From the NCBI RefSeq assembly GCF_028288105.1, contig NZ_JAQBOI010000040.1, positions 1 through 32,835 of the forward strand: 32,835 nucleotides of DNA. Direction: 5' to 3'. The position numbers and the translations under genes are program-made. The notes below the pieces were generated by a model. The model was given only the letters and a program-made list of their open reading frames with translations, was not told where the DNA came from and ran no database searches. Numbering within the stretch: position 1 is the first letter of the stretch; every line of letters starts with the position of its first letter. This DNA is from Mucilaginibacter sp. Lineage in GTDB: Bacteria > Bacteroidota > Bacteroidia > Sphingobacteriales > Sphingobacteriaceae. This document shows, in pieces, positions 12,126-31,115 of this stretch.

Positions 12126-12170
12126 CATCAACCGGCACCGTAATGTTTATAGCAAAACTACCGGTTGATG
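12126..12170 (+). promoter_or_regulatory. Inverted repeat occluding the sugar-transferase start codon
   Basis: CATCAACCGG (12126-12135) and CCGGTTGATG (12161-12170) are perfect 10-bp complements separated by 25 nt. The last three bases of the right arm are the ATG of the sugar transferase gene. In RNA the stem would hide the start, suggesting translational control; as DNA it could equally be an operator. The 7-of-8 -7-like box TATATTTA at 12096-12103 would place a transcription start just before it. Confidence 0.5.
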
Positions 12171-15616: not shown

Positions 15617-16696
15617 CGATGTTGCTATTTTGCTGATCTTACCGGCTATGGCTTCAAAAGAAAGCGTGTTTTTGAAATGATTTAACGTTAGTTGTCGCTT
15701 TTCTTCTACATCCATATGCAAAGTTTGGTTTAAGGCGGATAGCATGGCCTGTTCATTACCGGGCGGATATAAAATGCCGCAATTGCCATTATCTGTTATC
15801 ATCCTAAAAGAAAGAATATCGGTAACTACAGGTATGCACCCGCATGACATTGCCTCGCAAATAGCCGCGCCGCTACCTTCATAATGCGATCCCGAAACAA
15901 TAAAATCAACGCTATTGAACCAGTATAGCAGATCCTCATGTGATACCTTACCGATCAGCTTAATGGCATTGGTCTGTAAGGCTTTTATATCGTTTACAAG
16001 CTCATCGGTATGATATATCATATACAGCCGGGCGTCGGGGTTACTCTCTGTGAATGCTACAAAAGCTTTGACAACGGTTAACGGGTCTTTATTATCGTTG
16101 AGGCGGCCTACCCATAAAAAGGCCTTGTTGCCGCTAATGCCTGTCTTTTCGCGGGCAAGGTCTCTATCTATCGGGTAAAAAACAGAGGACACTTCCATCA
16201 CCTCGTATATTTTTGATGCATTGGCGAGGTTACCATTTGTTACCCATTCTGCACCCATAGCATATGATGCAAACAAGTAGGCATCTACACAGCGGTCGGC
16301 TAATTTTTGCAGGGTCTTTTTTAAGCCGGAGAAAGGCTTTTCCGCGTGATTCTGGACAATTATTTTCACACCTGGCCCCAGCAACAAACGCAGCTGAATA
16401 ACCTGTAAAGGGAAATGCAAGCCTTGAATAAACACCACATCGGGTTTTAATCGCTTTATGTATTGATGTAGCTTTAATGGAAAAAAACGTAAGGAGTTAC
16501 GCCCGAAACGTAGAAAACGGTAATCGGCACCATTGTTAAAAAACTGTCCTTCGTAGTTTATTTGTTCAATACTTATTACTTCATTAGTTTGGCTTAATGC
16601 TTCTAAAATTCCGCTATATGCATTAATGCGTTTTAGCCATGCCTGCGGCTGGCTAAACTCTTCGGTATACACATAACTGGCAAAAACAAACCTCAT
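15611..16696 (-). CDS. Glycosyltransferase family 4 protein
   Basis: 361 aa GT-B enzyme. Visible: FLWVGRLNDNKDP (193-205) with the phosphate-binding Arg198 and Lys203, and E-x7-E as E273-GSGAAIC-E281 followed by AMSCGCIPVVTD. The N-terminal domain starts MRFVFASYVYTEEFSQPQAW; FIQGLHFPLQVI and IVQNHAEKPF are typical acceptor-side strands. Donor and acceptor are unknown. It is the last gene of the five-gene minus-strand block that begins at 20538, lying 2 bp after the GNAT gene, and is therefore probably cotranscribed with the deacetylase and amidohydrolase. Its stop overlaps the stop region of the gene on the other strand. Confidence 0.9.
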   Translation of the reverse strand: MRFVFASYVYTEEFSQPQAWLKRINAYSGILEALSQTNEVISIEQINYEGQFFNNGADYRFLRFGRNSLRFFPLKLHQYIKRLKPDVVFIQGLHFPLQVIQLRLLLGPGVKIIVQNHAEKPFSGLKKTLQKLADRCVDAYLFASYAMGAEWVTNGNLANASKIYEVMEVSSVFYPIDRDLAREKTGISGNKAFLWVGRLNDNKDPLTVVKAFVAFTESNPDARLYMIYHTDELVNDIKALQTNAIKLIGKVSHEDLLYWFNSVDFIVSGSHYEGSGAAICEAMSCGCIPVVTDILSFRMITDNGNCGILYPPGNEQAMLSALNQTLHMDVEEKRQLTLNHFKNTLSFEAIAGKISKIATSL

Positions 16697-16698: not shown

Positions 16699-17652
16699 TT
16701 AAAAAATATCTATATCAGCAAAAGTGAATTTTAACTTATCAGGTGTTATCCCCGATCCCAGATCTTTGATCATCACCGGGAATGCAGGTACAGGTTGATA
16801 GTGCTTTTTGAGCGCCGCATGCAGGGCTGTATTTGGGCTTGCCTGAAACTGCAATGCATTTAAACCCAGCTTGCGCGATAGTTTTACCAGATCGTTTAAA
16901 ACATTCTCTGCATTATTCTCAAACCCTATCATATCGCCAATAACAAACCTGTCCTGAATTTTAAACCAGACCAACGCACCGCTAATTTGAATGGTGAAGG
17001 TATCGTTATAGCTTTTGTATTGCAGGTACTTATCATCACGGTACACTCCGTTAAAAAAATTAGGGATGCCTTTTTGAGACAGTTGGTAACGCCTTAATAC
17101 TTTTTTATAGTAACTATTATACAGGTTTCTAAACAAACCGAGCTTTTTAACTATCCGTACTACCGGGATAGTTTTAACAGGCACTATGAAGCACTCCAGC
17201 GTATCAATTATTTGCCAACCGAGTTTTAAAAGCCCCGGCAGGGAGTTTTGATTTGGGAAACCATATATCAAACAAATGCCCTCTATTCGGCAAAGTTCGA
17301 ATGTTAGGTTGGCCAGTATAATAAATAACCCTTTGTTGCGATGTGCAGGGTGGGTCATGGTATCGGCAGACTGCGCGGCTAAAATCAATCTGTTATCATA
17401 TTGTATAAAACAGGGGATAACACCATAATATGCTACGGGCAAGCCGCTATCATTATAAGCCAGATAGCCGGTATACATAACCCCCGTGTAGGCTGTATTA
17501 TACTTGCGGGTGTAGTATTCTACAGGTATTTTTTTATCATAAACGGCCTCGTATAACTGTGCCACGTGCCCTAACCGGGCAGCGTTTATCCGCTCGAAAC
17601 GATAGGGAGTATCGCTTTGGTGGTTAATAATATTTGCCCCTGATATTTGCAT
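16699..17652 (-). CDS. GNAT-family N-acetyltransferase
   Basis: 317 aa. The first 140 residues carry a GNAT fold: helix LGHVAQLYEAVYDKKI, the beta-4 segment RLILAAQSADTMTHP and the acetyl-CoA pyrophosphate loop PAHRNKGLF (about 102-110; R/Q-x-x-G/A type). The following half (about 190-317) looks like a second, degenerate GNAT-like domain, as in the tandem Acetyltransf_9-type proteins found in polysaccharide loci. It would transfer an acyl group from CoA to an amine, plausibly an amino-sugar or the product of the adjacent deacetylase. Its start overlaps the end of the deacetylase gene by 29 bp, a strong sign of coupling. Confidence 0.82.
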   Translation of the reverse strand: MQISGANIINHQSDTPYRFERINAARLGHVAQLYEAVYDKKIPVEYYTRKYNTAYTGVMYTGYLAYNDSGLPVAYYGVIPCFIQYDNRLILAAQSADTMTHPAHRNKGLFIILANLTFELCRIEGICLIYGFPNQNSLPGLLKLGWQIIDTLECFIVPVKTIPVVRIVKKLGLFRNLYNSYYKKVLRRYQLSQKGIPNFFNGVYRDDKYLQYKSYNDTFTIQISGALVWFKIQDRFVIGDMIGFENNAENVLNDLVKLSRKLGLNALQFQASPNTALHAALKKHYQPVPAFPVMIKDLGSGITPDKLKFTFADIDIF

Positions 17653-18628
17653 ACATTTGGTTTGCGGTTGATATAAAAGGGTTTATAGTTAGCCGTTCGC
17701 GCAGGGCTGGGTCGGCGTGGTGTTGCGGGCTGTTAAAGTCGGTAGCAAGCAATTGTTCATACCCGGCAGTCTTGGATAACGCGGCAACCTCTTCATTGTA
17801 TGATCCATAAGGGAAGGCTATGCTATTAACTTCGGTACCGGTAATTTTTTCCAGATAATATTTTGATTGTGTAAGTTCTTGCGCGGCTTCACCGGCACTA
17901 ATATTGCACAGGTCGTTATGGTAATAACCGTGCGAGCCTACGCTTGCATACGGCGAGGCGGCTAATTCTCTTATCTGCTCTGCTGTCATTTGCTGCCAGT
18001 AATCTTTAATGGTTGTTTCCTCCCGAAATCCCGTGAGGATATCTAATAAATTGATAAGCCCGGCTTTTTTATCAAAACCGGTTTTACGCAATTTATCGTT
18101 AAGGCTTACACCATCGGCGCCTATGTATTTGTTATAACGGCTTTTATAATATAACTCATTATCAAATTCAAACTTTACAGGGCCAAGCCGGCCTGCAATG
18201 CTTAGCAGATCGTTCCAAAGTATATCATATTTAGTTGCGCCTATTGCTGTAACAAAAAAGGTTGCCGGTATTTTGTATTTTGCTAACAAGGGCAGGGCAT
18301 AGTGGTAGTTATTGGCGAAGCCATCATCAAAAGTAAGGCATATGTTAAACCTATCTGTACTAAAACGCCCGGCGTAATAATCGGCCAATGAAACAACATT
18401 GAAATGCTTTTTGTAGGCTTTAAGATGTTCCTCAAATCTTTTTTGGGTGATGAATAAGGTGTTAAACCGGGTTGGGTTATCCAGGCAGATGCCATGATAA
18501 ACGATGATGCGGCTGCCACGGGCATATTGATAAGTGCTTTTATCAGCTCCTGCAAAGTGTAATAGATCGCCAAATAAATTGAGCGCTTTACGGGAGGCCC
18601 TGCTGTATATTTTTCTGGCGACGCTCAT
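17624..18628 (-). CDS. Polysaccharide deacetylase family protein (NodB domain)
   Basis: 334 aa. NodB-homology motifs in order: motif 1 LTFDDGFANNY with D101-D102; motif 2 as SHGYYH with metal ligands H233 and H237, displaced by an insert of about 100 residues between motifs 1 and 2; then the motif-3-like FPYGSYNEE. No signal peptide or membrane segment is visible, so it probably acts in the cytoplasm on a lipid-linked or soluble acetylated sugar rather than on wall polymer. It removes N- or O-acetyl groups using a divalent metal. Together with the GNAT gene that overlaps its end, it suggests replacement of one acyl group by another on an amino sugar. It starts 3 bp after the amidohydrolase stop. 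Confidence 0.87.
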   Translation of the reverse strand: MSVARKIYSRASRKALNLFGDLLHFAGADKSTYQYARGSRIIVYHGICLDNPTRFNTLFITQKRFEEHLKAYKKHFNVVSLADYYAGRFSTDRFNICLTFDDGFANNYHYALPLLAKYKIPATFFVTAIGATKYDILWNDLLSIAGRLGPVKFEFDNELYYKSRYNKYIGADGVSLNDKLRKTGFDKKAGLINLLDILTGFREETTIKDYWQQMTAEQIRELAASPYASVGSHGYYHNDLCNISAGEAAQELTQSKYYLEKITGTEVNSIAFPYGSYNEEVAALSKTAGYEQLLATDFNSPQHHADPALRERLTINPFISTANQMYANIRGKYY

Positions 18629-18631: not shown

Positions 18632-19798
18632 TCAGGCTGCGGGTTCTGATGGGAAGTACACGGGCAATTCGGCATCGGGCTTATATTGCTTTATCTGGTT
18701 TATTAAACCGGTAATATCTCCCTGCACGTATTTAATGCTGTTGCCTATATATACCTTAGTAAAATTGCTTGTAGCTGCGCCGTTTAACTGGTGATAAAGC
18801 GATTCATCAAACAAGCGGATATTGCCTTTATGCATAACCAGCAATATATCATCGGGGTGCAGCTCAAAAAACGAGGTTAAGCCACTTTGTGCAGGCCCGG
18901 CTTTAGCAATAACAAGATCGGCATCCAAGCCCTCCTGTATGCTACCGCTGTTTAATTGCCAGGTTGCAGCAGCTTTTGTAGTGAGCGACTGGTATAGTTC
19001 ATTCTCGCTAAGTAGCTTGGTTTTTTGGGCTATGCGGATATGTTCCCAGATATCCCAGCTACCGGTAAGGGTAGAGTCGGTCCCGAATAAAATTTCGGTG
19101 TATTTTTTTAAGTGGTTAACCGGGGCGGTTACACCCAACAAGAAGTAGTTTGATGCCGGGCACCATACTATAGCTTTAAATGATTTTGCCTGCGTTGGGG
19201 TAAGCGCTACGCCATGTATGCCTATCAGTTTGCGGGCAAGCAGGTTCCAATGGATCAGTTCGTTAATCTCATGTCGGGTGGCTTCATTTGTGCCCTCGCC
19301 AATATGTATTATTGCCGGTTTGTTAATTTTAAGCGGATTGTTTAGCCTCTTCCTCCACTTTTTTTCAAACTTAACGGAGTGGATGCTTTGGGCTTTTTCA
19401 TAAATGTTGATGAGCGGATCTGTAATGCCCAATTTTTTACCATGATTAACAACCGTGGTAACGCCGCACAACAGGTTTTTATACATGCCCCAACGCTCGC
19501 GTAGTGTTATGGGGATACTTAAAACAGATGCAATTTCCAAAGGATAAGTTTCATGGATGTATTTGCCCCATTCGGTATAGCTGTTATAGGTTTTGTTGCC
19601 TAAACGCGGGAAAAGGTTAAAATCGAGATGATCATGTGAATTAATAAGACCCGGAAACACAATGGCATTGGTGAATATAAGATGCGGGACGCTATTGTTA
19701 GCAAAGAGAGCATCCGAGATCTGCGCTATCCTTCCATCGCTAACTTTAATGCTCACCTGCTTATCACTATCTGCTATGCGTACGTTATTCAGTATCAT
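18632..19798 (-). CDS. Amidohydrolase superfamily protein (chlorohydrolase/deaminase-like)
   Basis: 388 aa. The TIM-barrel amidohydrolase signature is intact: HxH as H55-D-H57 in NSHDHLDFN, a His in VVNHGKKL, the H-x-GEGT segment ([14 protein letters not shown]), His in IGIHGVAL and the metal Asp in FGTDSTLTG; a small flanking beta domain is made from both ends ([10 protein letters not shown]... and [10 protein letters not shown]). This pattern belongs to the cytosine-deaminase/TrzN-like group that hydrolyses C-N bonds of amines, amides or N-heterocycles. Its place between a methyltransferase (4-bp ATGA overlap) and a deacetylase implies a biosynthetic step in the same pathway, an unusual setting for this family. 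The substrate is unknown. Confidence 0.85.
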
Positions 19799-20538
19799 CT
19801 CCCTCTTCTTAAATGCATCCCATAAATAATGGGGAAACCCTGGTAACTTTCGTATACATGCAGGGCATTTTGGCTGGCATAATAATGCTTTACTGTTTCG
19901 TCTATCTTTACTTCTTCCTTAGCAACAATAGTGAAATTGTTTTTTAGCAGTATCTCTTTAATGGTATCTACTAAATGCACATAATTTTGCACCGCAATAT
20001 GTGTGTTGTGATACTTAAATGTCCGTTTGCCGCCAAAAGCCAATGTATGCGGATGAAAATCGGTTATAATAATATCACCATCAGCTTTTAGAATCCGGCA
20101 CCAGGCCTCTAAAGCCTCTTCTATATACTTGATATGTGCAACCGTAAGGGTTGATACTATAGCATCGTAGCTTTGTGATGGCACATCTGTAAAAAGGTTA
20201 TCTGTTATCTGGTAGGTTTTAGCCTCCGGGAATTTCTGCTCTAAACGTTTAAGCATCCCGGCAGATACATCAAAACCGGTTAATGATTTGGGCTGATGTT
20301 TAAAAAGTTTAGCCCAATGCCGGCCGGTACCACAGCCAATATCAGCCACATCTTTACCGGATAGATCAATACCCTGCAATAATTTAGTGAACAGGGTTTC
20401 ATCCAGGTCAAGCATTAAATTACCTGGTTGCTCATCATAATTCACCGACCAGATATCATAGGCCTCTACCGATCCTTTTTCTTTTACGGGCGACGAAAAA
20501 AAATGCCGTTTAACATAATTTTTAAGCGTTTGTATCAC
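19795..20538 (-). CDS. Class I SAM-dependent methyltransferase
   Basis: 247 aa, starting with GTG at 20538 (no suitable ATG). SAM-binding motif I is [11 protein letters not shown], motif [13 protein letters not shown], and the post-motif region [11 protein letters not shown] followed by [15 protein letters not shown], a Methyltransf_11/25 pattern as in UbiE/small-molecule methylases. No membrane segment. It opens the minus-strand five-gene block; its stop overlaps the amidohydrolase start as ATGA. It faces the divergent radical SAM operon across a 258-bp gap. The substrate, presumably an intermediate of the local pathway, is unknown. Confidence 0.88.
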
Positions 20539-20597
20539 AATGTGCAGGGGTTTAAATATGCTTATTTATAAAAGATTACGACAGGCTAACTGTAAAG

Positions 20598-20634
20598 GTT
20601 GCCCATGCGGTTTTTATTTATACCGGCAGGCAAC
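20598..20634 (-). other. Weak inverted repeat in the divergent gap, leader side of the methyltransferase block
   Basis: GTTGCC (20598-20603) and GGCAAC (20629-20634) pair, with a further CGG/CCG inside. It would lie in the leader of the minus-strand block, about 60 nt before its GTG start. The 258-bp gap 20539-20796 also holds the stronger leader hairpin described next; no perfect TAnnTTTG box for the minus direction was seen. Confidence 0.3.
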
Positions 20635-20690: not shown

Positions 20691-20774
20691 TACATTTTAG
20701 TAATATGGGTTATCCCCCTTATGCAGGTTCAAACGGTGATGGATTCATTTCCATCACCAGGGGGATATTTTTTT
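20691..20774 (+). promoter_or_regulatory. Putative -7 box and compound leader hairpin with T-tract before the radical SAM operon
   Basis: TACATTTT (20691-20698) matches 7 of 8 positions of the -7 consensus. Just downstream an outer stem ATCCCCCT (20712-20719)/AGGGGGAT (20759-20766) encloses a 15-nt unpaired left strand and an inner perfect stem GGTGATGGA (20735-20743)/TCCATCACC (20750-20758) with 6-nt loop. The two stems stack on the 3' side with no gap, and a run of seven T follows (20768-20774). No gene reads into this from the left (the neighbour is divergent), so it is a leader element: an intrinsic terminator/attenuator or a small structured regulatory RNA 22 bp before the start codon. 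Confidence 0.65.
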
Positions 20775-20796: not shown

Positions 20797-22299
20797 ATGA
20801 ATAAAATACTGTTATTTAACCCTAAAAGCGCCGTAGCTAAACACCGTATCCCCAATTCTATTTTAAATATAGCTGCCTCGGTTGAGGGTAGGTACGAATG
20901 GGTAATTGTTGATGGCAACTGCGAGGAAGATCCCTTAAATAAGATAGAAGAGTACCTAAACACAGGCGAATATAAATACCTCGGCTTTACGGTTATGCCC
21001 GGTCCACAGTTAAAGCAATCCATCCCTTTTTCAAAGGCTATAAAAAAGAAGTTCCCACATACTAAAATGATCTGGGGCGGATATTTTCCATCAAGCCACC
21101 CAAAGGTGATATTGGAATCGGGCTATGTAGATTTTATCATTAACGGTCCGGGCGATCACGCTTTTCCACAATTGATAGATGCATTGGAGTACGGCACGCC
21201 ATACGAGTTTATTAGGAACCTGATATACATGGCCGGTAGCGAGGTAGTTAAAACCGCCAAGGAAGATCTGATGGATCAGGACTCGTTGCCCACCTTGCCT
21301 TATAACAAGCTGGATATTTTCTATTCCATAGCAAACAGATACCTGGGCAAAACCTATTTGGGTAATAAAACCGTGGCCTATCATTCCAGCATTGGCTGCC
21401 CGTTCACCTGCTCGTTTTGCGCGGTAGTGCCTATATATGAAGCCAGATGGAAAGCCAAATCGGCCCAAACGGTTTATAATGATATCAAGTACATCAAAGA
21501 CAAATGGGGAGCCGATGCTATAGAATTTCACGACAATAACTTCTTTGTATCCGAAAAACGGACGGTGGAGTTTGCCAAACTGATAAAGCCCGAAAATATG
21601 TCGTGGTGGGGGATGGCACGTATTGATACCATGGATAAATTCAGCGATGCATCGCTGGCCTTGATAAGGGAGGCGGGCTGTAAGATCATATTTTTTGGCG
21701 CGGAAAGCGGTAATAACCTTATCCTCGAACAGTTAGACAAAGGTGGTACCCAAACCGGCGAGCAGATTATCAGGTTTGCGGAGCGCTTAAAGAAATTTGA
21801 CATTATCCCCGAATATTCTTTTGTACTGGGTACACCGGCACCTACACCCGAGCAGGTGCAAGCGCAGATAGATTTTGAAATAGATTTCATCAAAAAAATA
21901 AAACACGTTAACCCACGTACCGAAATTGTGCTGTACACCTATAGCCCCGTACCAACCGAGGGTTCAACTTTATATAAGCAGGTGCAGTCGCTTGGGTTTA
22001 AATACCCGAAGGTATTGGAAGACTGGATAAGCCCGGCGTGGGAAAGCTTTGATCTGCGGAAAAACCCGCTTACCCCATGGCTTACATCCGAGATGATAGA
22101 TAAGATAAGGAATTTTGAAATAGTGCTGAACGGGGTTTACCCAACAGTTACAGATATAAGGCTAAACACTTTAAAAAGGAGGGCTATTAAGCTGGTATCA
22201 ACCTTGCGATACAAAATAGATCTATATAAATATCCGTACGAAATTAAGTTGCTGCAAAGGGTTTGGCGTTACAGGCAGCCCGAAATACAAGGTTTTTAA
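20797..22299 (+). CDS. Radical SAM protein with N-terminal B12-binding-like domain (1)
   Basis: 500 aa from the ATG at 20797; a TTG 24 bp upstream would abut the T-tract and is unlikely. Residues about 1-150 fit a cobalamin-binding fold (WGGYFPSSHP, VDFIINGPGDHAFPQLI), but the position of the lower-ligand DxHxxG reads VDGNCEED, so the His is missing. The radical SAM core follows with C201-x3-C205-x2-C208 in GCPFTCSFC, then FHDNNF, GAESG and EYSFVLGTP. A C-terminal helical region of about 120 residues ends the protein. Family members include class B methylases of unactivated carbon and hopanoid- or phosphonate-modifying enzymes. It leads the five-gene operon and ends in a TAATG stop-start overlap with the next gene. 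Confidence 0.88.
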   Translation: MNKILLFNPKSAVAKHRIPNSILNIAASVEGRYEWVIVDGNCEEDPLNKIEEYLNTGEYKYLGFTVMPGPQLKQSIPFSKAIKKKFPHTKMIWGGYFPSSHPKVILESGYVDFIINGPGDHAFPQLIDALEYGTPYEFIRNLIYMAGSEVVKTAKEDLMDQDSLPTLPYNKLDIFYSIANRYLGKTYLGNKTVAYHSSIGCPFTCSFCAVVPIYEARWKAKSAQTVYNDIKYIKDKWGADAIEFHDNNFFVSEKRTVEFAKLIKPENMSWWGMARIDTMDKFSDASLALIREAGCKIIFFGAESGNNLILEQLDKGGTQTGEQIIRFAERLKKFDIIPEYSFVLGTPAPTPEQVQAQIDFEIDFIKKIKHVNPRTEIVLYTYSPVPTEGSTLYKQVQSLGFKYPKVLEDWISPAWESFDLRKNPLTPWLTSEMIDKIRNFEIVLNGVYPTVTDIRLNTLKRRAIKLVSTLRYKIDLYKYPYEIKLLQRVWRYRQPEIQGF

Positions 22300-23042
22300 T
22301 GAATACACACTTTGATGATAGCGCAATATTACCAGCCCAAACTTTTGAAAAAGAGTTTGGGCATTTGTACATTAAGGTAAGGCAGTGCGAGCAAAGGCTT
22401 TATACCGATGAACAACTGCGGCAACTGCCGTATATTGATCCGTCGCATATTCATCATAAGGAGTGGAAGATAAGAAAGCGATCTGCAGAGCGATTGGTGA
22501 ATTACCTAAGCAAAAAGAAAAAGCCTTTAAACATACTGGAAATTGGTTGCGGAAATGGCTGGCTTTCGGCAAAATTAGCTAAAATAAAAGGCGCTATTGT
22601 AACCGGTCTGGATGTTAACGAGTTTGAAATAAAGCAGGCTAAAAGGGTGTTTAACAAGATCAACCTGCGGTTTTTTTGCGATGAATTTGATGCCGAAAAG
22701 TTTAAGTCAGTAAGCTTCGATATTGTTGTATTCGCGGCATCAGTACAGTATTTTAATCCGATGAGGGATATATTGGATAAAGCTTTGTCCAATCTCAATC
22801 CATTAGACGAGATCCATATAATAGACACCAACTTTTATACACCATTAAACGTGGCTGGCGCCGCGCAACGAACGCTGGAACATTATACAAAAATGGGTTA
22901 CCCGGATCTGGCCAAATATTATTTTCATCACAGGTTGGATGACCTGCAGGGTTATAAGTACAAAGTATTATCCAATCCAAACAGCATTATAAATCGGCTG
23001 CGAAAGGATAGTCCGTTTTATTGGGTCCGCATTAATAAATAA
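22299..23042 (+). CDS. Class I SAM-dependent methyltransferase
   Basis: 247 aa from the ATG at 22299, which shares one base with the preceding TAA; the frame is open farther upstream, but only inside the previous gene. An N-terminal helical extension (about 1-70, with YIDPSHIHHKEW) precedes SAM motif I ILEIGCGNGWLS, motif II VTGLDVNEFE, and FDIVVFAASVQYF at motif IV. The C-terminal part (about 175-247) contains several aromatic residues and FHHRLDDLQGYKY, with no recognised domain. It sits between two radical SAM genes, so it probably acts on the same product. Methyl acceptor unknown. Confidence 0.87.
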   Translation: MNTHFDDSAILPAQTFEKEFGHLYIKVRQCEQRLYTDEQLRQLPYIDPSHIHHKEWKIRKRSAERLVNYLSKKKKPLNILEIGCGNGWLSAKLAKIKGAIVTGLDVNEFEIKQAKRVFNKINLRFFCDEFDAEKFKSVSFDIVVFAASVQYFNPMRDILDKALSNLNPLDEIHIIDTNFYTPLNVAGAAQRTLEHYTKMGYPDLAKYYFHHRLDDLQGYKYKVLSNPNSIINRLRKDSPFYWVRINK

Positions 23043-23046
23043 TAAC

Positions 23047-24093
23047 ATGGCCGGGCAATCAATATATCATACTTATCAGCGATATCGCACCTTGCAAACG
23101 CATAAAATATCGGCGCTGCCTATCGTTATTTTAATGCCCCACAGCGCTTGTAATTGCCGCTGTGTAATGTGCGATATATGGAAGGATAACAAAAACCTGA
23201 AACAGCTCACCGAGCATGATATAACCGGTTTACTAACCGCCCTTAAAAAGTTCGGTACCAGGCAGGTGCTCATGTCGGGAGGGGAGGCGTTATTGAATAT
23301 CAACTTTTTTGGCCTGTGCCGCATCCTTAAAAAACATGATATAAAGATCACCCTGCTCTCTACGGGTTTATCAATAAAGAGAAATGCAAGCCAGATACTG
23401 GAATATGTTGATGATTTGATCGTGTCACTAGACGGCGACCAGCCCCTGCATGATGCCATCCGCGATATCCCCGGCGCGTTTAATAAACTGAAAGAAGGGG
23501 TAGAGCATATCCGCTCCATCAACCCAAATTACCGGATCACCGCGCGCACGGTTATTCACCGTTTAAATTTTAGGAACTGGCCGGCTATTATTGAGGCTGC
23601 AAGGGCAATGAGCATTAACCAGGTGAGCTTTTTACCTGCCGATGTAAGCAGCCACGCCTTTAACCGCCAAACTGCCTGGGCCGAACCCAAACAGCACGAG
23701 ATCCTGCCAGCAGAAAATGAACTGGGTGATCTGCAGCAGGTAATAGACCTGATAACTGCCAATGAAAGCGATTTTACGGGTCGCTTTATAGCCGAATCCA
23801 AATCGAAAATTCAGGATATATACCGCTACTATGCGGCCTTTTACGGATTGAACGATTTTCCGTTTAAAAAATGTAATGCTCCGTGGGTATCAGCAGTTAT
23901 TGAGGCGGATGGCAGCGTAAGGCCATGCTTTTTCCACGAGGCTATTGGTAATATCAAGGACAACGAGTTTGCCGATATTTTGAACAGCAAAGGGGCAATT
24001 GATTTCCGCAGATCGTTAAATATGGGTACCAATGCTACCTGTGTTAAATGTGTATGCTCGCTTAATTTATCGCCGCTAACGCGGCTTAATTAA
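23047..24093 (+). CDS. Radical SAM protein with SPASM/Twitch-like C-terminal cysteines
   Basis: 348 aa. The 4Fe-4S site is C35-x3-C39-x2-C42 in ACNCRCVMCDIW, with an extra Cys37. The core continues with VLMSGGEALLN (the GGE motif binding the SAM amino group) and LIVSLDGDQPLHDAIR. The C-terminal part has further cysteines, KKCNAPWVS, VRPCFFHEAIGNI and TCVKCVC, the pattern of an auxiliary iron-sulfur cluster domain as in SPASM/Twitch enzymes (peptide, sugar or cofactor modification). No B12 domain. No precursor-peptide gene was noticed next to it, arguing against a peptide maturase; a sugar or lipid head group is more likely from context. It lies 4 bp after one methyltransferase and 8 bp before the next radical SAM gene. 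Confidence 0.88.
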   Translation: MAGQSIYHTYQRYRTLQTHKISALPIVILMPHSACNCRCVMCDIWKDNKNLKQLTEHDITGLLTALKKFGTRQVLMSGGEALLNINFFGLCRILKKHDIKITLLSTGLSIKRNASQILEYVDDLIVSLDGDQPLHDAIRDIPGAFNKLKEGVEHIRSINPNYRITARTVIHRLNFRNWPAIIEAARAMSINQVSFLPADVSSHAFNRQTAWAEPKQHEILPAENELGDLQQVIDLITANESDFTGRFIAESKSKIQDIYRYYAAFYGLNDFPFKKCNAPWVSAVIEADGSVRPCFFHEAIGNIKDNEFADILNSKGAIDFRRSLNMGTNATCVKCVCSLNLSPLTRLN

Positions 24094-24101
24094 TAAAACG
24101 T

Positions 24102-25565
24102 ATGAAGAACATACTGTTTACCCATTCATACTTTTTACGATTCGACCCAAAACAGTGGTCGCAGGGGCAACCCTATGCGCCATTGGGGACGATATATGCC
24201 GCCGCATTAATGCGGGAGCATGGCTATAATGTGGCTTTGTTTGATACTATGTTTGTGAGTTATCCCGATGAGGTGATCCCCGCTATTGAAAGCCACCGCC
24301 CCGATTTTTTTGTGATCTATGATGATGGCTTTAACTACCTCACCAAAATGTGCCTCACCAATATGCGTGAAGCTGCCTTTAAAATGTGCAAACTGGCCAA
24401 AGCGCGAGGCTGTACTGTAATTGTTTCCAGTTCCGACTCAACCGACCGTTACGCAGAATACCTTGCCGAGGGGGCCGACTTTGTTATCCTCGGTGAAGCA
24501 GAACAAACCCTGCTGGAGTTAACTGATCATATTAAAGGCGGTGATACTGATTATATAGGCATAATAGGTTTAGCTTATGTTGATGACGCACAGATCACCA
24601 AAACACCCGCACGCCCTGTACTGAAAGATTTGGATAGTCTGCCCTTACCCGCCTGGGATCTGGTGGATATGGATGTTTACCGCCAAACCTGGTTAAAGCA
24701 TGCCGGATATTTTTCTATCAATATGGGTACTACCCGAGGCTGTCCTTATAAATGTAATTGGTGTGCCAAGCCTATTTACGGTAACCGGTATAACTCCCGC
24801 AGTCCGCAGAATGTGGTGAGCGAAATAAAGCTGCTCAAACAAAATTACAACATAGACCATATCTGGTTTTGCGATGATATATTTGGACTGAAACCCGGTT
24901 GGGTGCTGGAATTTGCAAAGCTTTTACAGCAGGAAGATATCAGGATCCGCTTCAAGATACAATCACGTGCCGATCTGCTGGCCGAGGAAGAATTGGTTGC
25001 TGCCCTTGCACAATCGGGTTGCGAGAATGTATGGATAGGTGCCGAAAGCGGTTCGCAAAAAATACTGGATGCCATGGATAAAGGCACCACCATCGCGCAG
25101 ATCCATACCGCTACCGGGTTGATGAAGAAACACGGTATTAAACCATCGTTTTTTATCCAGTTTGGTTACCCCGGCGAAACGCGGGAAGACATAGGGCTTA
25201 CTATAGATATGATAAATGCCTTGCTGCCCTTTGAGATTGGTATCTCGGTATCTTACCCGTTGCCCGGCACGGGCTTTTATGAAAAGGTAAAAGCAGAGCT
25301 AAAAAAGAAAACCAACTGGACAGACTCCGACGAGATGGCCCTGATGTTCACCAACACCTTCCCGGCGCCATATTACAAGCAATTGCATAGTTATGTGCAC
25401 CAAAATTACCATAAACACCTGGCCAAAAATAGTTTGCTAAAACTGGTGAAAAACCCATTGACCATTACAGGCCGCGGACTTAAAAAAGCGTTGTCGGTGT
25501 TTTACTATACCCCGCTTACCTATATCGAAAAACTAAAGTTGAACAGTTTAGAAAAAACGATGTGA
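24102..25565 (+). CDS. Radical SAM protein with N-terminal B12-binding-like domain (2)
   Basis: 487 aa. The N-terminal domain starts ILFTHSYFLRFDP and contains YAPLGTIYAAALMREHGYNVALFDTMF and ADFVILGEAEQTLLEL, as in cobalamin-binding radical SAM proteins; the DxH position is DTM, so again no lower-ligand His. The core has C214-x3-C218-x2-C221 in GCPYKCNWC, IDHIWFCDDIF, WIGAESGSQKILDAM and FFIQFGYPGET, all classical for this family (Elp3/MiaB-type TIM barrel). A positively charged C-terminus (about 430-487) could sit on the membrane. It is distinct from the first such enzyme of the operon, so at least two different radical reactions are expected. It ends in TGATG with the next gene. Confidence 0.9.
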   Translation: MKNILFTHSYFLRFDPKQWSQGQPYAPLGTIYAAALMREHGYNVALFDTMFVSYPDEVIPAIESHRPDFFVIYDDGFNYLTKMCLTNMREAAFKMCKLAKARGCTVIVSSSDSTDRYAEYLAEGADFVILGEAEQTLLELTDHIKGGDTDYIGIIGLAYVDDAQITKTPARPVLKDLDSLPLPAWDLVDMDVYRQTWLKHAGYFSINMGTTRGCPYKCNWCAKPIYGNRYNSRSPQNVVSEIKLLKQNYNIDHIWFCDDIFGLKPGWVLEFAKLLQQEDIRIRFKIQSRADLLAEEELVAALAQSGCENVWIGAESGSQKILDAMDKGTTIAQIHTATGLMKKHGIKPSFFIQFGYPGETREDIGLTIDMINALLPFEIGISVSYPLPGTGFYEKVKAELKKKTNWTDSDEMALMFTNTFPAPYYKQLHSYVHQNYHKHLAKNSLLKLVKNPLTITGRGLKKALSVFYYTPLTYIEKLKLNSLEKTM

Positions 25566-26386
25566 TGGAAACAACAGCAAACATAAACGAGCAATTGGCC
25601 GGTGAGGCTTTCAGCAATCAATCGGGTGTGTTTGATGCCTTATATTCGGGTAATACGATTATCAATTACAAGCGCGAACGGGTGCGCAGGCATGCGCTGC
25701 AATATCTTAAACCAGGCAGCAGCATATTAGAATTAAACAGCGGCACGGGAGAAGATGCCCTTTTCTTCGCGCAAAAAGATTTTAAAGTGCATGCTACAGA
25801 TATCTCTAACGGTATGCAGGCAGAGTTGATTGATAAAGCCGCGCGCAATAATATGCAGCACCTCATCAGCACTGAGATCTGCTCGTATACGCAACTGCAT
25901 CAATTAAAAAACAAAGGACCTTACGATCTGATATTTTCCAATTTCGCGGGGTTAAATTGTACCGACGAGTTGGATAAAGTGCTTAACTCGTTTTCAGCCC
26001 TGCTTAATTCCGGAGGAATAGTTACACTGGTCGTATTGTCAAAATTTTGCCTGTGGGAGATCATGATGTTGTTTAAGGGGAAGTTTAAAACAGCTTTCCG
26101 TAGATTCTTTAGTAGCAAAGGCAGGGCAGCGCATGTTGAAGGGGTACATTTTAAATGCTGGTATTATAACCCATCATTCATCAAAAAACATTTAAAAATC
26201 TATTTTGATGTTTTGAGCGTAGAGGGACTGTGTGCAATTGTACCGCCATCATACATTGAGGGTTTCGCCGAAAAGCATCCTGCCGTATACAAATTTTTGA
26301 CCCGCGCCGAGGATAAGTTAAAAACCACCTGGCCATGGCGAAACATAGGCGATTATTACATCATCAGCCTGAAAAAGAAAATTTGA
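25565..26386 (+). CDS. Class I SAM-dependent methyltransferase
   Basis: 273 aa from the ATG at 25565, overlapping the previous TGA; a GTG one codon earlier is less likely. SAM motif I is SILELNSGTGEDALFFA with Asn-Ser where Gly-Cys is common, motif II VHATDISNGMQ, motif IV YDLIFSNFAGLN. After residue about 150 comes a stretch LVVLSKFCLWEIMMLFKGKFKTAFRRFF, amphipathic to hydrophobic, which may touch membrane or a lipid substrate, then YYNPSFIKKHLK as in many lipid or quinone methylases. Last gene of the + strand block; its stop codon directly abuts the stop of the convergent nucleotidyltransferase-domain gene. Confidence 0.86.
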   Translation: METTANINEQLAGEAFSNQSGVFDALYSGNTIINYKRERVRRHALQYLKPGSSILELNSGTGEDALFFAQKDFKVHATDISNGMQAELIDKAARNNMQHLISTEICSYTQLHQLKNKGPYDLIFSNFAGLNCTDELDKVLNSFSALLNSGGIVTLVVLSKFCLWEIMMLFKGKFKTAFRRFFSSKGRAAHVEGVHFKCWYYNPSFIKKHLKIYFDVLSVEGLCAIVPPSYIEGFAEKHPAVYKFLTRAEDKLKTTWPWRNIGDYYIISLKKKI

Positions 26387-27307
26387 TTATTGGGCTACCC
26401 TGTTTTCGGTTTCCTGTAAAAGGGAAACCAACTTATGTTGATATCTGCTAATCAGCTTAGCTTGGAAGTTAACCGGATCGGGCTTGGCGCAATGCTTACT
26501 GGCAGCCATACCCATCACAGTGCCCCGCATATTCAGCTTTTTCATTTTGGTTTTTTTGTTCCATCTGCCGGCGGTAAACTTCATCAGGATATTGTCTAAC
26601 CATTCTCCTGCGCGGTTGTTCAGTAAACTTTCAATCAATGATTTTAAAAAGTACTTTCTTAATGGTTTGGCGCTTGCAAGGCGCAGGTTTTTGTTAGGGA
26701 GCAGGTCGCGTGTCCATGAGTTGGCTGCATAAAACCTTTCAAAAACGGTGTCACCCTCCAAAGGGATAAGCGTACCTATCTCAATAGCTGTATAAATGTT
26801 CTTTTCAACTATCTGCAGTTGCTCTTCATCTATATAATAGTTCATGCAGTAGTGGTGCTGTTTATTCACCAAAAAAGTAAGTTTTTTAAAGCAATGCATG
26901 AAGCTACGCGCTATCCACAAACGTTTTTTTTCGGTGATAATAAACAGGTCAATGTCTGACCTATCATCCGCGAAATTTTTTGATAAAGACCCCGAGATAC
27001 CCACACCACGTACATAAGGGAACTTGATAAGCAAGCGGCCCACCTCTTTCGCTTTTTTTATAAGCTCAGCCGCCTTTTCATTCCCTTTGTTACGCCGCGC
27101 AATTAATCCGTGATCGTTTTTAAGCGAGTAGTATTTATCAAACTGAAATATCATTTTATTAAAAACCAGTGAATTAAGCGCTTCGCTAAATTCGCTTTGC
27201 CGGTATTTATTCTCAAGGAATAGAAAAACCTCGCTGTATGTTAAAGGATAATCAAACATATCAAAATAAGCGAGAGAGGCTAAAATGTTTCTTTTGATCG
27301 TTAACAA
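26387..27307 (-). CDS. Nucleotidyltransferase-domain protein
   Basis: 306 aa if it starts at the TTG at 27307; the next ATG (17 codons on) would remove part of the N-terminal helix, so TTG is preferred but not certain. Residues about 1-70 look like a winged-helix or small helical domain (SLAYFDMFDYPLTYSEVFLF). A pol-beta type nucleotidyltransferase core follows with GS at 106-107 and the metal-binding pair D118/D120 in RSDIDLFII. About 150 C-terminal residues have basic patches (NKKTKMKKLNMRG). Relatives occur in Bacteroidota surface-polysaccharide loci, but the substrate is not known. It is the last gene of the minus-strand block but is separated from it by 175 bp including the foldback element, so it may have its own promoter. 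Confidence 0.75.
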   Translation of the reverse strand: MLTIKRNILASLAYFDMFDYPLTYSEVFLFLENKYRQSEFSEALNSLVFNKMIFQFDKYYSLKNDHGLIARRNKGNEKAAELIKKAKEVGRLLIKFPYVRGVGISGSLSKNFADDRSDIDLFIITEKKRLWIARSFMHCFKKLTFLVNKQHHYCMNYYIDEEQLQIVEKNIYTAIEIGTLIPLEGDTVFERFYAANSWTRDLLPNKNLRLASAKPLRKYFLKSLIESLLNNRAGEWLDNILMKFTAGRWNKKTKMKKLNMRGTVMGMAASKHCAKPDPVNFQAKLISRYQHKLVSLLQETENRVAQ

Positions 27308-27441: not shown

Positions 27442-27602
27442 AGGGGGCTCCTACAGAGCCAAAATTGGCTCAATGTATCATGCTATAAACAGGGTATTCC
27501 TAACGGAATAAAAAATAAGAGGACAAACTTCATACTCGGCTCCAGAGGAGCCACCTGTTTATAGAAAAAAATATAGGATATCTGGCTCTGTAGGAGCCTC
27601 CT
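27442..27602. mobile_element. 161-bp foldback, MITE-like palindromic element
   Basis: Terminal inverted repeats of 20 bp (27442-27461 and 27583-27602; one mismatch) share the core GGCTCCTACAGAGCC, itself a near-palindrome. Nested inside are an 11-bp repeat CTATAAACAGG (27483-27493)/CCTGTTTATAG (27554-27564), TATTCC/GGAATA (27495-27510), GGCTCC-AGA-GGAGCC (27538-27552) and the perfect palindrome GAGCCAAAATTGGCTC (27456-27471). The whole can fold into one long branched hairpin. It has no transposase and no clear target duplication. It overlaps the 3' end of the O-antigen-ligase-like gene, whose stop lies inside it. No second copy was noticed in the window. Confidence 0.65.
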
Positions 27603-28871
27603 TATCTCAGTGTTGCCTGTACTGATAACCCTGCCTCCTTCATATCCGGCAAAAACAAATAAGGAAAAGAAAATAGCATAAAAAAAGGTGCCTTTATCTA
27701 CATCCAGCACATTCTCTGAAAACGATACGATGGCTACTATAGCTAAAAAACTAAACAGCAGAAGGTCTTTTCTGGTCATGGCCAGCCTAAAGGCGAAGAA
27801 TAAGGTTGCCAGGTAAATCAGCAGTCCCCATATGCCGGTTTTTATTAAAAAACTGATGTATTGGTTATGCGCGTTTAAACCGTGCAGGTATGACCGGTAA
27901 AACTTATTCTCAAAATAATGCTCTTTCAAAAGTTGTATTTCTGACCCGGAACCATGACCGATGACGGGCGATTGGGCGACAAGTTTCATAGCCAAACCCC
28001 AGCGTGCAAGGCGGGGATCGGAAAGTTCGTTATCTGAGGCTTTGCTCAGGTCTTTTTTAAGATCGTATACATAATGGTCTTTAAATGTATCGATACTAAA
28101 AATACCCGCGATAACCAGTATCGAAAGTGCTGCTGCCACCGAAATATATTTTACCCGAAATTTCCCGGTTAAAAGGAAATAGGGTATGGCTATGTTGATG
28201 ATAAGCAACAGGCTTACAAATACCGATTTTGAGCTGAGTTGAATAATACCTGCCGCCAATATCGCGCAGCAAAAAATATAAAGTATTTTGGTATTTAAGC
28301 CGGGCGACTGCCTTATTAAGGCATACAGCAAATAAACCAGCGCGATAGCTATCTGCATCGAAAAAAAGGTAGCATGGATATCAAATGGGGCCGAAAAATT
28401 ATGGTTGGTAAATGCCGGGGATAACATTGCCGATATAGGAAAATGGTAATACCTTATTGTAAGCAAAACCTGTGCAAATAGGTAAATTATGGACGCTGTG
28501 CACCCCAATGCAAATACAGTTAAAAAGTTATCCCTGTATTTTTTAAGGCTGATGGGGTTAAGGCAAAGTATAATTGGCATAAGCAGGATAACAATTTGCC
28601 TTGCCCATTCATTAAAAGCCTGTGTTTTGTTAATGGTATACAATGTGCCGGCCACCGTTACAAAAAACACCGATTGCAGTATTAAATTATTAAAAGTGAA
28701 TAGCGGTTTTATATCCTGTTTTTTAAGCTGGATAAGGGTATGCAGGGCAAGGCTTATCAGTATTAAATGGCTGTAAAACCTATCGAAAGGCAGGCTAAGC
28801 AATAGCAGCATAATATGATAATAGCTTACCTTATTTGCGGTGCTATCGGTTACCAGGAATAACTTTTTCAT
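27483..28871 (-). CDS. O-antigen ligase/polymerase-like membrane protein (Wzy/WaaL family) with element-derived C-terminus
   Basis: 462 aa, roughly ten to twelve hydrophobic segments between about residues 15 and 415. The long periplasmic loop contains VIGHGSGSEIQLLKEHYF and then LNAHNQYISFLIKTGIWG, the H-N-x-Y...G...G signature of the Wzy_C/O-antigen ligase family. Such proteins polymerise lipid-linked repeat units or move glycan onto lipid A or another acceptor at the outer face of the inner membrane. Residues about 424-462 are encoded inside the foldback element (27442-27602) and end in a hydrophobic tail, KFVLLFFIPLGIPCL; the native protein probably ended near residue 424 or slightly later. 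Its start overlaps the preceding gene by 29 bp. Confidence 0.83.
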   Translation of the reverse strand: MKKLFLVTDSTANKVSYYHIMLLLLSLPFDRFYSHLILISLALHTLIQLKKQDIKPLFTFNNLILQSVFFVTVAGTLYTINKTQAFNEWARQIVILLMPIILCLNPISLKKYRDNFLTVFALGCTASIIYLFAQVLLTIRYYHFPISAMLSPAFTNHNFSAPFDIHATFFSMQIAIALVYLLYALIRQSPGLNTKILYIFCCAILAAGIIQLSSKSVFVSLLLIINIAIPYFLLTGKFRVKYISVAAALSILVIAGIFSIDTFKDHYVYDLKKDLSKASDNELSDPRLARWGLAMKLVAQSPVIGHGSGSEIQLLKEHYFENKFYRSYLHGLNAHNQYISFLIKTGIWGLLIYLATLFFAFRLAMTRKDLLLFSFLAIVAIVSFSENVLDVDKGTFFYAIFFSLFVFAGYEGGRVISTGNTEIRRLLQSQISYIFFYKQVAPLEPSMKFVLLFFIPLGIPCL

Positions 28872-29976
28872 GAATATTCTTTTTATGGCATTCCAGTATA
28901 AATTCCTCGTACTCGTTTATCACCTTTTCCCAGTTAAACTGGTATTGTATTTTTTGCAGGTTGTTTTGCACCATAGTTTTTTCGGTATCATGCCGTTGTA
29001 CGTTTTCAACCAGGTGGCGTACTTCTGCGGCGTTATTAAAGTAAAAGGCATCCGTACTCAGTACCGATTTATTGAAAGGGTTATCATGCGCGGCTATGAG
29101 GGCCTCGCTGGCCATGGCCTCTAAAAGTGAAGGGTTAGTACCACCCACGCTATGCCCGTGAAAATACAGGTAAGAGTTGTTTTGTAACCACCGTACAGCG
29201 GCATTATCAAAAATTGACCCTTTGAATTGGATCCGGTCGTCTTTTTTAAATTTATGGGTAATGAATTTGCCAAAGCGGTTACCGGTATCGCCCAAGACTT
29301 TAAATTTTTTATGTGACGTACTGCTGCTAAAGCCCTCCAGTATGGTTTCTATATTATTCTCGGGTTCCATGCGGGCCATTAGTAAAAAGTAATCCTCTTT
29401 TAGTAATGCGCTTTGATCAAACTGTTCCCGCTCGAAATCGGTAAAAAGGTCGGCACCATAGGGGATATACCTGCTATCAATGGCATACTTATCTTTCAGG
29501 TAAGTTTTTATAACCCGCGAATCGGAGATATAAGAACCGCTGTATTTTACGGCAAGCTTTTCGGCATACTTTAAAAAACGCTGTACAGGTTTCGAATATT
29601 TAGATCGCTTCCATTCCAGGCCATCCATGTTGGTAATAATGGCGCTGTTTTTAGGGTACAGCATTCCCCATACCGAACTGCTGGTGTAGCCCATTATCAG
29701 TAGCACATCAAACTTCCGTTTACGGGCATCCATAATGCAGTTAAAATCATAGGCAAATTGCCCCGCGGCGCCCAGCAGGTATTCCGGGTCATAACAATGC
29801 ACAATATCAACCCCGTTCCAACTACTGGCGGTGTACGAATGGTTGTGCGAGTTATAAACGGTAACCGAATGCCCTTTTTTAACCAGGCCTTCAGATACAT
29901 ATTCGGATATATGTTCGAACCCCCCGTAATTATTGGGGATGCCGCGTGTACCTAAAATTGCTATTCTCAATTTCAT
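28843..29976 (-). CDS. DUF1972-type GT4 glycosyltransferase (rhamnosyltransferase-like)
   Basis: 377 aa. It begins with the DUF1972 signature ILGTRGIPNNYGGFEH (about 6-21) followed by VTVYNSHNHSY, then LLIMGYTSSSVWGMLYP and IITNMDGLEWKRSKYS, all diagnostic of this GT-B subgroup, whose studied members add rhamnose or related 6-deoxyhexoses in capsule and O-antigen synthesis. The C-terminal GT domain has LLMARMEPENNIETILEGF and GGTNPSLLEAMASE in place of the usual E-x7-E. Cytoplasmic, no membrane helix. The start overlaps the preceding gene by 4 bp (ATGA) and the end overlaps the ligase-like gene by 29 bp. The sugar assignment is only a family tendency. Confidence 0.9.
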   Translation of the reverse strand: MKLRIAILGTRGIPNNYGGFEHISEYVSEGLVKKGHSVTVYNSHNHSYTASSWNGVDIVHCYDPEYLLGAAGQFAYDFNCIMDARKRKFDVLLIMGYTSSSVWGMLYPKNSAIITNMDGLEWKRSKYSKPVQRFLKYAEKLAVKYSGSYISDSRVIKTYLKDKYAIDSRYIPYGADLFTDFEREQFDQSALLKEDYFLLMARMEPENNIETILEGFSSSTSHKKFKVLGDTGNRFGKFITHKFKKDDRIQFKGSIFDNAAVRWLQNNSYLYFHGHSVGGTNPSLLEAMASEALIAAHDNPFNKSVLSTDAFYFNNAAEVRHLVENVQRHDTEKTMVQNNLQKIQYQFNWEKVINEYEEFILECHKKNIHEKVIPGNR

Positions 29977-31115
29977 GTGTTGTAGTTTGCTTGTAACAGA
30001 TTATAAAATTTGTTGCTGCTGTTTTGCCAGTTGTATTGCCAGCTAATTTGTGCAGCCACCTTCTCCATAAAAGCGTTTGAAGGAGCAGTATCTATCATCT
30101 GCGATAGCTTTTGCTCGAAGTCGTTTTCATCAGCCGGGTCAAACCTGTACGGCTCAAAAAATGTAAAATCCTGCATGGCTGTTGCCGATGAACACAGCAC
30201 AGGCGCACCGCAAATAGCAGCTTCTAATGGTGGTATACCAAAACCTTCGGCTTTTGAGGGATAAACAAACAGTTTACAAGCCCGGTAAAACGCAGCCAGG
30301 TTTGGCTGGCTTACCTGCTTTATCCAATAGAACAGCTGCTTTTGCTCATTGCTTAAGCCATTAATGAGTGTGGTAAGGGCGGGAATATGGATAGATTCCT
30401 TGCCGATAAAAACCAATGCGATACCACGTTTATATAGTTCGAGCTTTAAATAGCTTTTAAGAAGCAAAAGCTGGTTCTTTCGTGGTTCGATACGGCTGGT
30501 ATACAGGATAAAGTTTTTAATGCCGAAGTTTTGTTCAACCACTTCAACAGCTTCCTGCTTTGAGCTTTGAAACCGCATCAGAGCATCGTTTACACCATTT
30601 TGGATAATGAGTAGCTCTGTTTCGGGGATATTGTAATAGCTGCAAATATGCTGCTTGGAATAGGCTGATACGGTAGTTTTGATATGAGCGCGTTTTATGC
30701 TACTTCCAAAAAGCAGGTTCCGGCTTATGCGATATAAAAAGGAAAAATCCTGCCTGAAATCGTTAAACAACACATCGTGCAGGGTAATCACATACTTGCA
30801 GCCCGGGCTGTTTTTTGGGGCGATGTATTGGAAGTGAGCGAAATCAAACCTGTGTTTTTTGATGTATGCCGGGATATCGAATACATAACGTAGCAAGCCT
30901 ATCCCTCTTTTTTTATAGGGCAGGATATTGACTTTAGGTACGCCGGGAAATATCTTGCTGATGTTGGCTGTATCATAAGCGCCAAAGTAGATCTCCAGAT
31001 CGGCATGGCTGGCAAGCAGTTGTGTGTAAAGCTCCCTTATAAAAGTTTGTGCACCCTGGTACTCCTTGTCAAAAACATGGGCGTCAACAAATAATTTTAT
31101 CTTTTTAGCTGCCAT
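29973..31115 (-). CDS. Glycosyltransferase family 4 protein
   Basis: 380 aa GT-B enzyme. The N-terminal half opens IKLFVDAHVFDKEYQGAQTF, with the Gly-rich acceptor loop of GT4 mannosyltransferase-like proteins, and includes YVITLHDVLF. The C-terminal half has FILYTSRIEPRKNQLLLL (Arg/Lys donor-phosphate site), IALVFIGKE, and E-x7-E as EGFGIPPLE followed by AAICGAPVLCS. It probably extends the lipid-linked repeat unit with a hexose; donor unknown. It overlaps the upstream GT2 gene by 11 bp and the downstream DUF1972 gene by 4 bp, so the block is translationally coupled. Confidence 0.91.
   Translation of the reverse strand: MAAKKIKLFVDAHVFDKEYQGAQTFIRELYTQLLASHADLEIYFGAYDTANISKIFPGVPKVNILPYKKRGIGLLRYVFDIPAYIKKHRFDFAHFQYIAPKNSPGCKYVITLHDVLFNDFRQDFSFLYRISRNLLFGSSIKRAHIKTTVSAYSKQHICSYYNIPETELLIIQNGVNDALMRFQSSKQEAVEVVEQNFGIKNFILYTSRIEPRKNQLLLLKSYLKLELYKRGIALVFIGKESIHIPALTTLINGLSNEQKQLFYWIKQVSQPNLAAFYRACKLFVYPSKAEGFGIPPLEAAICGAPVLCSSATAMQDFTFFEPYRFDPADENDFEQKLSQMIDTAPSNAFMEKVAAQISWQYNWQNSSNKFYNLLQANYNT

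Follow-up and report, generated by a model that had tools for sequence, protein, structure and literature searches.

A radical SAM gene block in a glycan locus of Mucilaginibacter and the wider-spread pairing of one of its enzymes with a putative nucleotidyltransferase in Bacteroidota

Results

The window analysed here is a stretch of 32,835 nucleotides, positions 1 to 32,835 of contig NZ_JAQBOI010000040.1 of Mucilaginibacter sp. (assembly GCF_028288105.1; 333 contigs, 88.53% complete; designated G000). It carries a block of five genes encoding three radical S-adenosylmethionine (SAM) enzymes, termed rA, rB and rC, and two methyltransferases, MT1 and MT2. The block is conserved among close relatives and looks like an extension of a wider-spread pair comprising rC and a putative nucleotidyltransferase, NT. 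We judge the chances to be about even that this operon serves an accessory locus for a surface glycan or a lipid-linked oligosaccharide as its radical tailoring unit.

The genes of the block are as follows.
20797 to 22299, forward strand: rA, a B12-binding-type radical SAM enzyme (ATG at 20797; CxxxCxxC; GG cobalamin loop as WGG, residues 93-95)
22299 to 23042, forward strand: MT1, a class I SAM methyltransferase (ATG at 22299, 1-nt overlap with the rA stop)
23047 to 24093, forward strand: rB, a radical SAM enzyme with a C-terminal SPASM auxiliary-cluster domain (Pfam)
24102 to 25565, forward strand: rC, a B12-type radical SAM enzyme with non-canonical loops (DDxFNYL; no GG) (Pfam, alignment)
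25562 to 26386, forward strand: MT2, a class I SAM methyltransferase (GTG start; 4-nt overlap with rC)

An earlier note on this DNA had proposed a five-gene operon here, and the open reading frame (ORF) calls and Pfam assignments bear this out: the order is rA-MT1-rB-rC-MT2, and neighbouring genes either overlap or are spaced by at most 8 bp. Pfam assigned MT1 and MT2 to the class I SAM methyltransferases, while rB scored 56.9 bits for Radical_SAM and 44.9 for SPASM (cut-off 21.5), which makes it a SPASM member. The Radical_SAM and B12-binding scores were 43.4 and 40 bits for rA and 80.8 and 33.1 bits for rC, the last of these barely above the B12-binding cut-off of 32.1. Both rA and rC possess the CxxxCxxC motif and an N-terminal B12-binding fold, with motifs invariant in alignments of 24 rows each. 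As the note had observed, both also lack the histidine of the DxHxxG position (VDGN in rA, FDTM in rC), as does every row of the two alignments. The suggestion that this absence hints at methylation was not supported; in the available part of PMC13331322, which treats cofactor binding, the missing histidine is not diagnostic of methylases.

No compositional break marks an island, with G+C content between 0.397 and 0.449 in 2-kb steps across the window. No precursor peptide was seen in the ORF lists or in a Pfam scan of 29 window proteins, beyond which no further search was made.

The five-gene block looks like an extension of an NT-rC pair

The earlier note had omitted the divergent MT0-AH pair described below and also a gene directly downstream of the block, which encodes the most constant partner.
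26387 to 27307, reverse strand: NT, a putative Pol-beta-type nucleotidyltransferase, convergent with and abutting MT2

NT scored 20.3 bits against PF01909, just below the cut-off of 21. The D-x-D element of the Pol-beta motif was present in 21 of 21 aligned rows, and its other element read G-S in 15 rows, G-E in 4 and G-G in 2. The N-terminal region, judged by eye, resembles a winged helix.

A sample of 296 Bacteroidota genomes, the same set each time, was searched five times, with rA, rB, rC, NT and the amidohydrolase AH. The orthologs counted have identities of at least 42% for rC and at least 47% for rA, and expect (E) values of 1.4e-28 or better for NT; rB and AH were counted at E 1e-40. 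Matches to rC at E 1e-40 were obtained in 28 genomes, from which G268, G396, G407 and G427 were dropped at only 28-32% identity. Likewise, G399 (29% identity) was removed from the 15 genomes matching rA at E 1e-40, and G269 (E 2e-17) and G167 (E 6e-15) from the 26 matching NT at E 1e-10. Orthologs of rC were thus retained in 24 genomes, and NT was found in exactly those 24. Furthermore, rA (14 genomes), rB (9, of which three matches are only 34-35% identical) and AH (8) occurred solely inside this set of 24. Hypergeometric p values for co-occurrence ranged from 3e-33 to 6e-10, with shared ancestry ignored. Thus, the five-gene block appears to extend the NT-rC pair.

The pair is also physically linked. 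In all 24 genomes no more than 4.4 kb separates NT from rC (in G432 by way of an NT fragment at a contig end); counted from listed positions, 19 have NT immediately upstream, on the strand of rC and at most 300 bp away. It is downstream on the opposite strand in G000, G014, G021 and G182, and in G295 the two genes are 4.4 kb apart. The distance from rA to rC is at most 17 kb in 13 of 14 genomes, while G432 has the two on different contigs.

Within a genus sample of 100 genomes, rA was detected in 64. Both rA and NT were present in 62 and neither in 30; six had NT alone and two rA alone, one of these with stops inside. A family-wide sample agrees less well with the idea of a widespread locus: rA was found in only 6 of the 19 listed genomes of the same genus and in 9 of 151 overall, one of the nine matches being a fragment of 79 residues, only 63% identical and containing a stop.

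A scan for relatives of rA returned 145 stretches encoding one, and the best 80 of these 145 loci were kept. Many belong to named Mucilaginibacter, the nearest found being Mucilaginibacter aquariorum (rA 97% identical), whose strain JC4 has almost the same block (L010); others belong to Dyadobacter, Chitinophagaceae and unclassified Bacteroidota. Sixty-one loci were testable, with at least 3 kb before rA and at least 4.5 kb after it. MT2 was recognised in all 61, rB, rC and AH in 59 each, MT0 in 57 and MT1 in 46; rB, rC and MT2 occurred together in 57. The set is conserved as a unit, with rA, rB, rC and MT2 in that order on one strand in 55 of the 61. In 52 full-length loci, MT2 was recognised in 52, AH in 51, the glycosyltransferases GT1 and GT2 in 48 and 47, the ABC (ATP-binding cassette) transporter in 42 and Wzy in 38. 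The deacetylase and GNAT genes were recognised in 22 of 52 each and are therefore optional members. Most of the block is present in Dyadobacter frigoris, whose rA is 81% identical, which suggests transfer between families.

rA and rC belong to separate clades and differ in the cobalamin loop

In a tree of 60 proteins, including one HpnJ and two BchE rows, the rA clade received support of 100/100 and the rC clade 98/99, rising to 100/100 with a group of paralogs termed rC2; both stood apart from HpnJ and BchE. HpnJ and several other outgroup rows sit on long branches, for which the tree program warns of false joins, and therefore only the separateness of the two clades is used here, not their sister groups.

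None of the 18 NCBIfam families listed for rA, nor any of the best 25 of 31 for rC, was matched at its curated cut-off. HpnJ (TIGR03471, cut-off 577.6 bits) was the best family of rA at 111.1 bits and the second of rC at 134.5, and BchE (TIGR02026, cut-off 481.35) was the best of rC at 148.1 and gave 99.2 for rA. Scores were 40.4 (rA) and 99 (rC) against AprD4 (NF033070, cut-off 500), and 42.9 and 96 against B12_rSAM_oligo (TIGR04295, cut-off 400). Additionally, no squalene-hopene cyclase was found in the host genome (88.53% complete), where PF13243 had no match. Given the sub-cut-off scores, the separate clades and the lack of PF13243 in the host, membership of a hopanoid or bacteriochlorophyll pathway was rejected.

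The block might still follow the HpnI-HpnK-HpnJ plan of glycosyltransferase, deacetylase and radical SAM ring rearrangement to make a ring-contracted or cyclitol-type sugar. The available portion of PMC12583986 describes the three hopanoid steps: HpnI adds N-acetylglucosamine, HpnK deacetylates it and HpnJ carries out a radical ring rearrangement, with cyclitol ether formation on the sugar. The ranking of HpnJ among the families of rA and rC and the polysaccharide deacetylase within the block agree with such a plan. However, the HpnJ scores fall far short of the family cut-off, neither rA nor rC groups with the sole HpnJ of the tree, and the deacetylase was recognised in only a minority of full-length relatives, so that we consider this reading decidedly unlikely.

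AlphaFold2 models of rA (predicted local distance difference test, pLDDT, 81.7) and rC (pLDDT 83.0) both show the B12-type radical SAM fold. The rC model is nearest to AprD4 (Z 24.1, 3.9 Å, 405 aligned residues, 22% identity), tied with OxsB (Z 23.9). The rA model is nearest to OxsB (Z 20.5), followed by CysS, AprD4 and TsrM at Z 19.0-19.2. By sequence, AprD4 was the first PDB match for rA and the second for rC.

The GG loop that follows strand four of the cobalamin domain is kept in rA as WGG in 13 of 13 phylum-wide rows and aligns with the GG of TokK. All 22 rC rows are without it, having a variable first position followed by SSD (18 rows), GSD (3) or TSD (1), and in all 22 the loop preceding this site reads DDxFNYL. 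The rC2 paralogs carry GGPD at the same site in 6 of 7 cases and GGVH in L155. CysS and TokK have GG where rC has none, but OxsB, a cobalamin binder, aligns there with GN; cobalamin loss in rC therefore does not follow from the loop, and we advance it as a hypothesis. The host probably uses cobalamin, since its genome matches PF02965, the methionine synthase B12-binding activation domain.

Second rC-like genes, 33-35% identical to rC and with a canonical GG, were noted in L138, L143, L148, L149, L154 and L157. They share loci with rC and often adjoin an MT2-like gene.

Both B12-type enzymes could instead be cobalamin-dependent C-methylases that branch sugar carbons. The accessible part of PMC5461906 describes such a role for GenK and GenD1, which methylate positions of an aminoglycoside, gentamicin, and the available text of PMC13142503 ties the subclass mostly to methylation, while noting non-methylating members; the intact cobalamin loop of rA fits as well. 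Against this stands the missing GG of rC, which CysS, TokK and the rC2 paralogs keep; moreover, the absent histidine is not diagnostic. We regard methylation by both enzymes as rather unlikely. The earlier note had suggested radical C-methylation, rearrangement or cross-linking of a sugar or lipid head group; C-methylation is possible for rA, whereas for rC a non-methylating sugar reaction is favoured, with modest confidence, because of its loops and AprD4-like fold.

Glycan-assembly genes flank the block on both sides

The neighbouring genes were assigned by Pfam, AH also by alignment.
12165 to 12893, forward strand: initiating sugar-phosphate transferase, PF02397
12904 to 14565, forward strand: ABC transporter with fused membrane and ATPase domains, a possible flippase
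14555 to 15616, forward strand: GT1, glycosyltransferase group 1
15611 to 16696, reverse strand: GT2, glycosyltransferase group 1
16699 to 17652, reverse strand: GNAT-type acyltransferase
17624 to 18628, reverse strand: polysaccharide deacetylase
18632 to 19798, reverse strand: AH, amidohydrolase of the cytosine deaminase/chlorohydrolase kind
19795 to 20538, reverse strand: MT0, class I SAM methyltransferase, divergent from rA and overlapping the AH gene by 4 nt
27483 to 28871, reverse strand: membrane protein of the Wzy_C / O-antigen ligase family
28843 to 32187, reverse strand: three glycosyltransferases (28843-29976, 29973-31115 and 31105-32187)

The placement of glycan-assembly genes on both sides, claimed previously, was confirmed by PF02397, the ABC transporter, the glycosyltransferases, the deacetylase and Wzy_C. 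With Glycos_transf_1 and Glycos_transf_2 both represented, the genes have the composition of a Wzy-type surface-glycan locus. No Wzx flippase was recognised among the 29 window proteins scanned. In several distant loci, rC is near other membrane proteins and glycosyl transferases, of types judged by eye.

In L141, L143 and L144, rC and rA were seen beside two proteins typed by eye, one a large membrane protein (y0), the other heptosyltransferase-like (y1).

Alternatively, the product of the cluster may be a secreted small glycoside or glycolipid rather than a surface polymer. The density of tailoring enzymes would resemble that of natural-product clusters, and the window's Wzy has no match in several distant loci. 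However, the window block includes a sugar transferase, an ABC transporter, a Wzy-type protein and glycosyltransferases, and Wzy is recognised in most full-length relatives. A small secreted product is, in our view, quite improbable.

Residues H55, H57, H165, E168, H195 and D241 of AH were invariant in 20 rows; we take them to be the metal and catalytic residues of deaminase-like amidohydrolases. The best PDB relative by sequence was TM0936, presumably an S-adenosylhomocysteine/methylthioadenosine deaminase, in a weak and partial match (E 1.4e-9, residues 156-301 only). AH might accordingly be a housekeeping deaminase of the S-adenosylhomocysteine or 5'-deoxyadenosine that the methyltransferase and radical SAM reactions release, instead of a tailoring enzyme. 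The identity of this relative and the invariant residues speak for such a role, but the match is limited in strength and extent, and AH was found in only 8 of the 24 rC genomes. We consider such a role rather unlikely.

Conserved elements lie upstream of rA

Two elements were identified in the region between MT0 and rA.
20597 to 20634, no strand assigned: inverted repeat GGTTGCC..TTTATTT..GGCAAC, in the divergent MT0/rA promoter region, upstream of the hairpin
20711 to 20767, forward strand: two-storey hairpin with an outer stem, a 5-prime bulge and an inner stem; its end lies 29 nt before rA

The hairpin was found before rA in 18 of 76 loci, the window included, ending 26-42 nt before the start codon, compared with 1 of 380 resampled controls; the loci include L012, L014, L018, L024 and L030. 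Seventeen of the 18 were aligned, L016 being omitted for its different shape, with small shifts of a few bases to the ends of L025 and L036. In this alignment 12 of 16 pairs showed changes on both sides that preserve pairing. A covariance model of the 17 hairpins gave nine matches in the host genome at E 1, of which the window's was the sole full-length one (E 6e-7); the others covered the inner hairpin only (E 0.003-0.85). Applied to the window together with 44 of the 80 loci (45 sources in all), the model picked out the same position in L041, L044, L045 and L053, which were outside its training set; L041 and L044, with similar scores, are possibly near copies. A T run follows the hairpin in only 4 of 18 cases, so that not every one can be explained as a simple terminator. 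The hairpin is possibly a leader regulator or antitermination element.

The inverted repeat, GGTTGCC..TTTTATTT..GGCAAC, sits within an outer TACG..CGTA and is conserved in 12 aligned sequences; the GGTTGCC..GGCAAC pattern occurs upstream of rA in 49 of 76 loci. It is a possible shared operator for the MT0 and rA directions.

Rfam returned no family at gathering score in the window, and two small nucleolar RNA matches upstream of rA (E 0.42 and 5) were taken as chance. Promoter scanning gave 15 sites compared with 19.7 in shuffles, and 15 terminator-like sites were found compared with 8.0; neither was used as evidence.

Discussion

From the genes, domains, motifs and joint conservation and linkage observed above, we infer the following chemistry. 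The sugar transferase and glycosyltransferases would assemble a lipid-linked sugar chain, whose amino group the deacetylase and acyltransferase, where present, might edit. NT and rC would carry out a common core step on the sugar unit, rC probably acting without normal cobalamin binding, in the manner of a sugar dehydratase or rearranging enzyme. With its cobalamin loop intact, rA could add a cobalamin-dependent step, either C-methylation or a skeletal change, and rB a third radical step. MT0, MT1 and MT2 would methylate oxygen or nitrogen, and the ABC transporter and Wzy-type protein would export and join the product.

Several observations weigh against this assignment. The third acidic residue of the NT Pol-beta motif is not conserved (the two aspartates are kept), no relative of known structure was found for NT at E 0.1, and the NT copy in G166 has an internal stop; for these reasons NT may be non-catalytic. 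Neither rA nor rC is more than 22% identical to the listed solved structures, so that a reaction type cannot be transferred to them. No AprD3-like dehydrogenase or reductase was recognised by Pfam between 12165 and 32187, AprD3 itself not having been searched for. Finally, the glycan context proposed earlier stands in Mucilaginibacter and its relatives, but in three distant loci, L151, L152 and L153, NT and rC occur and none of the window's glycosyltransferases was matched across the 20 kb retrieved; the core step may therefore not be glycan chemistry. Support for the glycan setting is thus good close to the window and weaker towards the fringes of the phylum.

A more specific proposal, which we hold to be unlikely, is that the cobalamin domain of rC, with DDxFNYL and no GG, has been rebuilt to accommodate a different ligand, which could be a nucleotide or a sugar nucleotidylated by NT. 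On this view, a Bacteroidota pathway yielding a radically altered sugar would have NT-rC at its centre, with rA, rB, AH and the methyltransferases as additions.

B12-type radical SAM enzymes perform hard chemistry at unactivated carbons, and the sugar-acting examples in the available parts of PMC5461906 and PMC12583986 serve antibiotics and hopanoids. Returning to the proposed tailoring unit, a conserved three-enzyme radical module with a phylum-wide NT-rC core suggests that common environmental bacteria carry out a sugar modification not seen before. The block is found in many soil and water Bacteroidota, and some carriers are named and cultured, hence open to testing.

Comparison with known systems

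The block matches no described pathway that we found. No paper on this cluster was found in the open-licence PubMed Central literature, judged by title or the start of the abstract, and the parts available of two Mucilaginibacter genome papers report antiSMASH clusters without mentioning such an operon.

HpnJ and BchE share the domain order of rA and rC and are their highest-scoring curated families, but fall in separate clades, with scores far below the cut-offs. The solved enzymes OxsB, TsrM, TokK, CysS and MgmA have a fold in common with both models; identities are at most 20% in the listed rows, and their described substrates are mutually unrelated.

The earlier note had called such radical chemistry not usually assigned to surface-glycan loci, which was an overstatement, as two cases illustrate. 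TIGR04295 is also a B12-type radical SAM family, although rA and rC score far below its cut-off; we take the "oligo" of its name to mean oligosaccharide, and the family to be tied to oligosaccharide loci. The second is a plasmid glycan locus of Lawsonia intracellularis (L161:2455-17063), which resembles the block in having an rC-like gene, a second radical SAM gene and methyltransferases; the methyltransferase ORFs number six, of which two are short pieces, and all are set among genes for glycosyltransferases and sugar precursors. The radical SAM protein of this locus shows 25.6% identity to rC across 92% of the rC length and groups with HpnJ, on long branches. NT, by contrast, had no match among plasmids.

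A further cassette with a B12-type radical SAM gene is common to a Calothrix plasmid (L160:8668-14160) and a Streptomyces plasmid (L166:1790-7239). It comprises a MoaA-annotated or radical SAM gene, the B12-type gene, and genes for an aminoacyl-tRNA-synthetase-like protein, an LD-carboxypeptidase, a small protein and a short-chain dehydrogenase/reductase.

The radical SAM diol dehydratase AprD4 (PDB 6fd2) shares its overall fold with rC across 405 aligned residues. According to the accessible part of PMC5461906, AprD4 acts on an aminosugar, in a deoxygenation, with AprD3 as its reductase partner, whereas in the block the constant partner of rC is NT.

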